In this document: one piece after another, positions 10,594 through 15,307 of the stretch
Layout: the number at the start of each line of letters is the position of its first letter
Numbering within the stretch: the first letter of the stretch is position 1
Source: Desulfurellales bacterium
Lineage (GTDB): Bacteria > Campylobacterota_A > Desulfurellia > Desulfurellales > Hippeaceae
Assembly (NCBI GenBank): GCA_027035575.1
Contig: JALVUQ010000070.1
Span: 1-64,000, forward strand
Reading direction: 5' to 3'
Length of the DNA stretch: 64,000 bases
Made by a program: the position numbers and the translations under genes
The notes under the pieces: generated by a model
Databases searched by the model: none
Told to the model about the DNA's origin: nothing
The model's input: only the letters and a program-made list of their open reading frames with translations

Positions 10594-10905
10594 ATGTCTG
10601 TTTTGGTTGAGTTTGCTATGTTTCCTACCGACAAGGGAGAAAGCGTCAGCTCTTATGTAAGCAGAATAATAAAGATGTTTAAAGAAAGTGACGTTCAGTA
10701 TCAATTAACTCCTATGGGAACGGTTTTTGAAACTTCAACCTTAAAAGAGGCTCTCGACATAATTGAAAAGGCGTATCAATGTTTGGAGAACGACTGCAGC
10801 AGAATATACTCAACAATAAAGTTTGACATAAGAAAAAACAGAAACAACAGAATGAAACAAAAGATAGCCTCAATAGAAAAAAAGATTGGAGAGGTTTCAA
10901 CATAA
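10594..10905 (+). CDS. MTH1187/YkoF-family (thiamine-binding fold) protein
   Basis: A 103-aa protein of the MTH1187 (DUF77) family. It starts MSVLVEFAMFPTDKGESVSS, has the SRIIKMFKESDVQYQLTPMG strand-helix pattern, GTVFETSTLKEALDII, and a basic C-terminal helix. Homologues are small cytoplasmic ferredoxin-like-fold proteins that bind thiamine-like ligands. A direct metabolic role has not been established for most. It follows the thioesterase gene with a 10-base gap and a GGGAGG Shine-Dalgarno. No thiamine genes are nearby. Confidence 0.85.
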   Translation: MSVLVEFAMFPTDKGESVSSYVSRIIKMFKESDVQYQLTPMGTVFETSTLKEALDIIEKAYQCLENDCSRIYSTIKFDIRKNRNNRMKQKIASIEKKIGEVST

Positions 10906-10989: not shown

Positions 10990-11025
10990 ATATAATGAAA
11001 TATATGTAACCAAGAGGATGTGGAT

Positions 11026-11541
11026 ATGAAAAAGTTTGGTGTGCAAATTTTTGTATTTCTTAGCGCAATCTTCGCATTGTCAATTATCTCTTATGCCAAA
11101 CTGCCTACCTATGCCAAAGTCTGCTCGGTTATGGAAGACATTAAAGGATGACAGGTAAACGAAAAGTGTAACGGAACAAATATGTCAGGGACATCTGTAG
11201 GTGCGGTCGTTATAGCCACAAAGTCATTCAAAAACGGTGACAAAGAGTTGGAATTAAGCGTTGTTTCAGGTATGCAGGCAGTAGCAAGCTGGGGAATGTT
11301 CCAGGCATCTATGTCTGTAGAAACAAACGAAAATCTTCTAAAGACAATGGATATACAAAATTACAGAGGCGGAGTTGCCTATGATAAAAAAGCCAAAAGC
11401 GGTGTTGTTTATGTCTGTTTGAAAAATGTAAGCGGTCAGTGCAGGGTCCTTTTCAGTTTAAAATTTGACAAGATGGACTACAAAAAAGCTGTTGATTTGG
11501 TGAAAAACTATAATTTAAAAGCCATAGAGCAAGTTTTTTAA
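11026..11541 (+). pseudogene. Secreted protein gene with in-frame UGA at codon 42
   Basis: Reading from the ATG at 11026 (AGAGGATG Shine-Dalgarno) gives a signal peptide (KKFGVQIFVFLSAIFALS, then a SYA-type cleavage site), a short mature start ending VMEDIKG, then TGA at 11149-11151. The same frame stays open for 129 more codons to the stop at 11539-11541. The downstream part (TSVGAVVIATKSF, GVAYDKKAKSGVVYVCLKN) looks like a real periplasmic domain of uncharacterised type. Three readings are possible: a TGG-to-TGA nonsense mutation (a Gly-Trp before a Gln would be natural), UGA readthrough as selenocysteine, or a short peptide plus an internal ATG at 11182. UGA is used as an ordinary stop elsewhere in the window, for example at 26617-26619. 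Confidence 0.65.
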
Positions 11542-11609: not shown

Positions 11610-12515
11610 ATGAGTGATGTTTTTTTGCTGTTTCTTCTGTTTCTAACCACCTTCGCCTGGGGTGTGGGCTTCCCCATATCAAAAGTGGGAATACACTATA
11701 CCCCGCCTTTCACTTTCGCCTTTATCAGATTCTTCATAACCTCAATACTTTTTATGATTATTGTATCAAACCGCGGTAACAATATTATCAACAATTTAAA
11801 AAAACACTTCATAGGACTTTCCGTTATGGGGTTAAGCGGAATAACTATCTATAACTTTTTTTATCTGTATTCGCTAAAGTTCACTTTGGCGTCAAATTCC
11901 GTTTTGATAGCCTCTTTCAACCCTATTATAACAACAATCATTGCGGCTATTTTCCTAAAGGAAAAAATAAGCGGATATATGTGGATTGGAATTGTCGTAT
12001 CGCTTTTCGGTGTTATGACGATAATCAGCCGTGGTTCATTATCTACAATAGAACACCTTTCTTTCAATATAGGCGATTTGTTTATGTTGACGGCAACTTT
12101 TCTTTGGGCAATCTATTCGGTTGTCGGTAAGACGGTCATTAACAGCATAGGACATTCTCAATCCGTTGCGCTTTCAACTCTCCTTGGAACCATTTACCTG
12201 ATACCGTTTGTATTTATGGAAGGGAGTATAAAACAGATAGCCTCATACCCTTTGATAGCCTGGGGCAGCATTATGTATATGGCTTTGGTGGCAACCTTTT
12301 TTGCTTTTAGCGTATGGTATAAAGGTGTTGAAAAATTCGGAGCCTCAAAAACGAGCATTTTTGTCAATCTCGTACCTGTCTTCGGCGTTTTGGCTTCATC
12401 TTTTATGCTTCACGAACACCTGCATACGGTTGTTATTTTAGGAGGCATTTTGGTGATAACAGGCGTTCTTATTACCAATAAAACAAAAAAAGTTGTTGCC
12501 TTTAACGATAATTAA
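11610..12515 (+). CDS. EamA/DMT-superfamily transporter
   Basis: A 301-aa inner-membrane protein with about ten hydrophobic helices arranged as two EamA repeats of five. Repeat 1 starts LFLLFLTTFAWGVGFPISKVG and repeat 2 starts GDLFMLTATFLWAIYSVVGK. Each repeat ends with the usual FLKEK/LHEH element (AIFLKEKISGYMWIGIVVS and FMLHEHLHTVVILGGILVI). Members export or exchange metabolites such as amino acids; the substrate cannot be predicted. There is little leader sequence: a TATAAA element lies just upstream of the ATG at 11610, and the Shine-Dalgarno is weak. Confidence 0.88.
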   Translation: MSDVFLLFLLFLTTFAWGVGFPISKVGIHYTPPFTFAFIRFFITSILFMIIVSNRGNNIINNLKKHFIGLSVMGLSGITIYNFFYLYSLKFTLASNSVLIASFNPIITTIIAAIFLKEKISGYMWIGIVVSLFGVMTIISRGSLSTIEHLSFNIGDLFMLTATFLWAIYSVVGKTVINSIGHSQSVALSTLLGTIYLIPFVFMEGSIKQIASYPLIAWGSIMYMALVATFFAFSVWYKGVEKFGASKTSIFVNLVPVFGVLASSFMLHEHLHTVVILGGILVITGVLITNKTKKVVAFNDN

Positions 12516-13300: not shown

Positions 13301-15307
13301 ATGGGAGTAGATATCGATAAAAAAAGAGTTGTAGCCGTATGCGGAAGCGGGGGGTGCGGAAAGACAACACTCGTTGAGGATATAATGTTTCTCACCAAAA
13401 AAACCACAAGAAAAGGCTCAACGGATAAAGGCAATACCTTAATGGACTTTGATTCGGAAGAAATAGAAAGAAAAATATCATTGCAGTTAGCCGTAGGAAA
13501 TACACAGTGGAATAAGCATATTTTATACTTTATAGATACACCGGGTTATCACAACTTTATCGCCGATGCTCTTTGCGGAATAAGGGCAGCGGATTCCGTA
13601 TTGATGCTTGTTGATGCAAAAGACGGTGTTAAAGCACAAACCGAAAGGTTGTTTGACGAGGCAAAAAAAGAGCACAAACCCGTTATGTTTTATTTAAACG
13701 GATTGGATAAAGAGGATATAGACGTAGAAAAGGTGGTTAATTCCATCAAAAGTGAATTGAGCGACAAGGCTTTTTTACTGCAATACCCCATAATAGAAAA
13801 CGGAAATTTAATCGGTTATGTTGACATACTTGAGCAAAAGGCTTTTGATTACGAGAAAAAAGAAAAGGATATACCATCTTCTGTCAGTGATTTTGTTGAA
13901 GAAAAGTATATGGAATTGATAGAAGAAATCTCAACCTTTGATGACGAGTTAATGGAAAAATATTTGGAAGGCGAGGAACTGGAGAAAAGTCGGTTGGTTG
14001 ATACTCTAAAAAGTGCCGTTCAATCCGGTGAACTATATCCGATACTTGCAGGCTCAGCTTTAAAGGGCTTTGGCAGTGAACAACTGCTGAACGATATGGT
14101 GGAACTTCTGCCTCCGCCAAAAGAAGAGTACGACGAAGATGCGGCTTTGGTATTTAAAACCTACAACGACCCTCAGCTTGGTAAAATCAGTCTGTTGAGG
14201 GTATGTGCCGGAGAATTTAAGTCGGATACCAACTATTTTAACGTCAATAAAGACCAGGAAGAAAGGCTTGGTGCTCTCCAGAGCGTACAGGGCAAATCAT
14301 TTTCAAAGGTTGAAAGCGCAACGGTAGGTGATATTGTAGCTGTTGCCAAACTAAAAACAACCCAAACCGGTGATACGATAGCAAATAAGGGTTCTTCGGT
14401 TAAGTGCGACTTCATAGAGATGCCCTTACCGTTCATATCATATGCCGTTTACGGAACATCCAAAGGTGACGAGGAAAAACTCGGAGCTGCGATAAGTAAA
14501 ATAATAGAATCCGACCCAAGCTTGAAATTCTCAAGAAACAACGAGACAAAAGAGTTTATACTAACGGGAATGGGCGCAATGCACCTTGAAGTGACTGCAT
14601 CCAAGTTGAAAAACAAGTTCGGCGTTGAGGCTACGTTGAAACTGCCTAAGATTGCATATAAAGAAACGATTAAAGGAAAAACGCAATCTCACGGAAGATA
14701 CAAAAAACAAACCGGCGGTCACGGACAGTTCGGAGACTGCGTAATAGAAATCGAGCCACTGCAAAGGGGCGGCGGATTTGAATTTGTCGATATGATTGTA
14801 GGCGGTGCAATACCGAAACAGTTTATACCTTCGGTTGAAAAAGGCATAAAAGCAGCTATGGAACAGGGCTTTTTAGCCGGATATCCTATGATAGACATAA
14901 GAATAAAATTGATAGACGGTTCATTCCATCCTGTCGATTCAAGTGATTTGGCATTTCAGATGGCTGGCTCGATAGCATTTAAAGACGGTGTTGAGAAATG
15001 TAAGCCTACCCTTCTTGAGCCTATTGTAGAGATGGAAGTTGTAGTGCCTGATGATAATATGGGTGATGTAATCGGAGATTTAAACTCAAGAAGAGGAAGA
15101 GTGTTGGGTATGGAGCCTTACGAAGAAAAGAAAGGATACCAAAGAATCAAAGCCTTGGTTCCTGAGGCGGAAATTCTGGAATATGCCCCTTCTTTGAGGT
15201 CTATCACGGGTGGTAAAGGATTTTTTAAGTATAAATTCTCAACATACGAAGAAGTACCCCAGCAGATAGCCGAAAAAATCATAGAAAAATCAAAATCCGA
15301 AGAATAA
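13301..15307 (+). CDS. fusA2: Elongation factor G-like translational GTPase
   Basis: A 668-aa EF-G paralogue. The G domain shows P-loop GSGGCGKTT at residues 15-23, DTPGYHNF near 73-80, and a G4 motif that reads NGLD instead of NKXD. Domains II-V follow: KGSSVKCDFIEMPLP, a domain IV core with TGGHGQFGDCVIEIEP, and a C-terminal domain with YAPSLRSITGGKGFF. The family (EF-G-like, often annotated FusA2) is present beside true EF-G in many bacteria, and its precise role is unresolved. The altered G4 could change nucleotide specificity or affinity. A GGAGG Shine-Dalgarno is present. A bidirectional terminator follows directly. Confidence 0.92.
   Translation: MGVDIDKKRVVAVCGSGGCGKTTLVEDIMFLTKKTTRKGSTDKGNTLMDFDSEEIERKISLQLAVGNTQWNKHILYFIDTPGYHNFIADALCGIRAADSVLMLVDAKDGVKAQTERLFDEAKKEHKPVMFYLNGLDKEDIDVEKVVNSIKSELSDKAFLLQYPIIENGNLIGYVDILEQKAFDYEKKEKDIPSSVSDFVEEKYMELIEEISTFDDELMEKYLEGEELEKSRLVDTLKSAVQSGELYPILAGSALKGFGSEQLLNDMVELLPPPKEEYDEDAALVFKTYNDPQLGKISLLRVCAGEFKSDTNYFNVNKDQEERLGALQSVQGKSFSKVESATVGDIVAVAKLKTTQTGDTIANKGSSVKCDFIEMPLPFISYAVYGTSKGDEEKLGAAISKIIESDPSLKFSRNNETKEFILTGMGAMHLEVTASKLKNKFGVEATLKLPKIAYKETIKGKTQSHGRYKKQTGGHGQFGDCVIEIEPLQRGGGFEFVDMIVGGAIPKQFIPSVEKGIKAAMEQGFLAGYPMIDIRIKLIDGSFHPVDSSDLAFQMAGSIAFKDGVEKCKPTLLEPIVEMEVVVPDDNMGDVIGDLNSRRGRVLGMEPYEEKKGYQRIKALVPEAEILEYAPSLRSITGGKGFFKYKFSTYEEVPQQIAEKIIEKSKSEE

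Follow-up and report, generated by a model that had tools for sequence, protein, structure and literature searches.

The gene for an apparently exported protein at positions 11026–11541 (plus strand) of the window, the 64,000-nucleotide stretch of Desulfurellales bacterium contig JALVUQ010000070.1 analysed here, has a 171-codon frame whose sole interruption is an in-frame TGA at codon 42 (11149–11151). We consider it very probable that this TGA is an ordinary TGG-to-TGA nonsense change, either biological or a consensus error, that truncates a small exported protein. The stop corresponds to a G-to-A substitution in the third position of a conserved Trp codon. The change may be a nonsense mutation of very recent origin, an allele carried in the sampled population, or a consensus error, the assembly being a draft of many contigs. 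What is released would consist of the signal peptide and about 17 further residues and would presumably be functionless. Trp is found at this position in homologues, the selenocysteine machinery is absent, UGA termination is normal in this genome, and the sequence downstream of the stop is under purifying selection. We infer a recent change, with full-length protein made in small amounts at most. The event is of an ordinary kind.

The layout of the gene is that of a secreted-protein gene. A leader (11007–11025, plus strand) with a Shine-Dalgarno-like AAGAGG, read from the sequence, lies 5′ of the ATG; the sister species has AAGAGGAGG at the equivalent place, followed by a GTG start. The N-terminus is hydrophobic and signal-like (MKKFGVQIFVFLSAIFALSIISYA), and inspection of codons 1–24 (11026–11097), with KK, a hydrophobic stretch and SYA, indicates a probable signal peptide. 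Past the TGA, the frame remains open for 129 codons up to the TAA at 11539–11541. The initial annotation had described a signal-peptide gene with a Shine-Dalgarno sequence, a TGA at codon 42 and 129 further codons, and both this description and its coordinates are correct. It had also noted coherent, domain-like sequence after the TGA. Because homologues align over the full length of the gene, including stop-free, full-length ones in G002 (89% identical) and G001 (61%), the post-TGA frame is truly coding.

The exported protein had no match above the cut-off in Pfam or NCBIfam, and a PDB sequence search likewise gave no match. An AlphaFold model of modest confidence built from two sequences (pLDDT of 70.5) matched no PDB entry at E ≤ 0.001, and its top matches, all weaker than that value, disagree among themselves. 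Therefore, we claim no function for it. The protein is best called a member of an uncharacterised exported-protein family that occurs in Desulfurellaceae and a few others. The family (window:11026–11541 and homologues L002–L008) is a candidate new domain family, marked by a G-x-x-Y-x-K motif and by a conserved Gly-Trp/Tyr close to the N-terminus.

A translated search of 61 genomes gave matches in nine, including the window's own genome. The match in G019 covers the C-terminal part only and does not reach the codon 42 column, which is covered in seven homologues. In the same-genus genomes G002 and G001, the gene is uninterrupted and codon 42 is TGG in both; the G002 sequence also occurs as WGCD01000117.1, a Desulfurellaceae metagenome-assembled genome. 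The local sequence reads IKG-TGA-QVNEKC here, compared with IKG-W-QVNEKC and LNG-W-QLAEKC in these two homologues, and a single third-base G-to-A change sets the window apart from the nearest homologue at this codon. Among the distant homologues, the column holds Trp in G008, G006 and G045 and Tyr in G010 and G009. Overall, five of the seven homologues have Trp and two have Tyr, and none of the seven has Cys, selenocysteine or a stop. Codon 42 is thus a conserved aromatic position beside an invariant Gly. The initial annotation had left three explanations side by side, a nonsense mutation or error, selenocysteine insertion and a translation restart, and had proposed that an alignment with Trp in all homologues together with a lack of sel genes would point to the first. 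This is what we found, with Tyr in place of Trp in two homologues. A nonsense mutation predicts intact orthologues whose sense codon differs by one base, as G002 and G001 have. A stop conserved for functional readthrough is not indicated: the codons after it are under coding selection, but the stop is confined to this genome and all homologues lack it.

Comparison of codons 43–171 between the window and G002 gave 27 synonymous and 6 nonsynonymous differences (omega ~0.07). When the changes that could be polarised with G001 as the outgroup were counted, the window branch carried 8 synonymous and 0 nonsynonymous changes after the stop, for which the neutral probability is 8.6e-6. The signal-peptide region evolves fast (omega ~0.44). 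The post-stop codons are under strong purifying selection, and hence the gene has worked during most of the period since the split from the G002 species. It follows that the stop is very recent, is a population allele or consensus error, or has been leaked through at a low level. The downstream sequence carries no second stop, no frameshift and no amino-acid change that can be placed on this lineage, which counts against truncation; continued production of some full-length protein would leave the same absence of decay. The selection data alone do not separate a very recent stop from one that is read through.

A gene matching the Pfam Thiamine_BP family lies upstream of the interrupted gene (10594–10905), and an EamA transporter gene (11610–12515) and an EF-G-like gene lie downstream, both intact here and in the same order in G002 and G001. 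Over 9.2 kb from around the gene and downstream, the alignment to G002 contains 24 gap positions altogether and has 91.5% identity. The damage is confined to one point. As a separate observation, the EF-G-like protein (13301–15307, 668 amino acids) seems distinct from the canonical EF-G copies found in the selB search described below.

Genome-wide reassignment of UGA to Trp would suit the Trp identity of the interrupted codon, but the genome reads UGA as a stop. The prfB gene, encoding RF2, is present with a match over the cut-off, and at its start a short frame with AGGAG and then CTT-TGA-C forms a programmed +1 frameshift site (G000 contig C8 near 70180–70270; L057:10180–10270). This arrangement is the classical autoregulatory prfB frameshift site, which works only if UGA is a stop. 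In 237 kb of sampled sequence, window included, TGA terminates 29 of 148 long coding-like ORFs (about 20%), and no other comparable TGA-split gene stood out. None of the tRNA genes examined has a UCA anticodon, and the tRNA-Trp (G000:C43:284–360; L059:284–360) has a normal CCA anticodon. Because RF2 comes with its own frameshift site and TGA closes about a fifth of the long ORFs, UGA works as a normal stop in this genome, and reassignment is extremely unlikely.

The proposal that a SECIS-like hairpin directs selenocysteine insertion at the UGA has in its favour the TGA codon itself and a hairpin of chance-level stability, and nothing more. In this genome, which is 96% complete, we found no match to selA, nor in 20 relatives, whereas the control search detects selA of Escherichia coli. 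Profile searches of the genome for selB and selD gave many matches, all under the curated cut-offs; as these resemble EF-Tu, EF-G, LepA, IF2-like GTPases or other related enzymes, we did not count them as evidence. For tRNA-Sec, the genome gave only matches below the gathering score, and the best of them are tRNA-Leu and tRNA-Ser according to ARAGORN. Thus the search for selA, selB, selC and selD suggested in the initial annotation did not reveal the pathway.

The hairpin proposed at 11149–11187 (plus strand) fares no better. Its arms, TGACA at 11149–11153 and TGTCA at 11183–11187, are present as annotated, but the folding strength is at chance level: the predicted energy is −2.8 kcal/mol (z = 0.04), and 95 of 200 shuffled sequences fold equally well. 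SECIS stem-loop folds next to the TGA have z values of 0.04 to 0.39 and do not amount to a stable stem. The 52-nt stretch beginning at the codon 42 TGA folds less stably than the mean for stretches that start at a TGA, and of the 904 TGA triplets in the window, 5.5% can pair perfectly over 5 bp with a sequence no more than 60 nt away. The low z value and this frequency indicate that the hairpin is no more than chance. In addition, its 3′ arm has no counterpart in the sister species. An Rfam scan of the local stretch gave no SECIS family and nothing over the gathering score; a search of the genome with RF00031 gave no match, but its controls gave none either, and we give that search no weight. 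With the machinery missing, the homologues carrying Trp or Tyr and not Cys, and the hairpin at chance level, selenocysteine insertion is vanishingly improbable.

The third explanation of the initial annotation was a restart of translation at the ATG at 11182, which would give a 119-residue protein. The ORF (11182–11541, plus strand) is indeed present; its ATG is codon 53, 10 codons past the stop, with a weak GGA some 8–10 bases upstream, and codons 53–171 are conserved (omega ~0.07). However, the product would have no signal peptide, so that export would be lost, and it would also lack the N-terminal region, in which Cys33 and Cys48 are largely conserved. Most homologues of the family retain Met53 as an ordinary internal residue, and the same internal codon occurs in relatives with intact genes. 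A restart at this site is highly improbable.

A further possibility is that the TGA is tolerated through low-level misreading of UGA-C by tRNA-Trp, with Trp inserted and small quantities of full-length exported protein still produced. Misreading of UGA by tRNA-Trp in E. coli and Bacillus subtilis, and inefficient termination at UGA-C as well documented in bacteria, are both described in an excerpt of PMC5289835. The stop here lies in this weak UGA-C context, and a trace of full-length protein is therefore plausible. Because the conserved residue is Trp, its insertion would restore the ancestral protein, and the purifying selection on the downstream frame also fits. The top pair of the anticodon stem of the tRNA-Trp is a G27-U43 wobble (our numbering), which is weaker than the C27-G43 pair of E. 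coli, where unpairing of 27-43 enhances UGA reading (PMC13092985); the wobble might slightly ease UGA misreading. On the other hand, it is a wobble and not a mismatch, and it is the same in the two relatives read and is shared with relatives that have intact genes. The changes A9C and G24A, named as tRNA-Trp changes that enhance UGA reading (PMC13092985), are absent from this tRNA-Trp. One variable-loop base differs from some relatives and was considered as a suppressor change, but G012 and G001, the latter with an intact gene, have exactly the same tRNA-Trp sequence. TGA is regularly used as a stop, and a very recent mutation or an error accounts for the same data. We therefore regard tolerance by misreading as unlikely. 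It is very unlikely that the UGA-C has been kept in the lineage as a leaky regulatory stop at which the G27-U43 tRNA-Trp inserts Trp and some exported protein is made. Separately, the G27-U43 tRNA-Trp in a group that still uses UGA as a stop may merit comparison with the survey of tRNA-Trp with 4-bp anticodon stems (PMC13092985).

The nonsense change carries little biological weight in itself. It is a worked negative, in which an in-frame UGA with a hairpin that looked plausible was explained by aligning homologues and checking for the selenocysteine machinery. Were the stop found to be leaky and fixed in the species, the gene would be a minor natural example of UGA-C being misread as Trp.

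Among known systems, bacterial selenoprotein genes, which have a SECIS and SelA/B/C/D, share with this gene an in-frame UGA inside a coding frame, whereas here the selenocysteine machinery and Cys homologues are lacking and the hairpin is not significant. The present case resembles near-cognate readthrough of UGA by tRNA-Trp(CCA) in the UGA-C context and the Trp position; it differs in that no tRNA change is specific to this genome, in which any readthrough is putative. The closest likeness is to a point nonsense mutation, or young pseudogene, in which a Trp codon carries one substitution, the gene is otherwise undamaged and sister species have intact homologues. We found no difference from this type, whether the change is biological or a consensus error.
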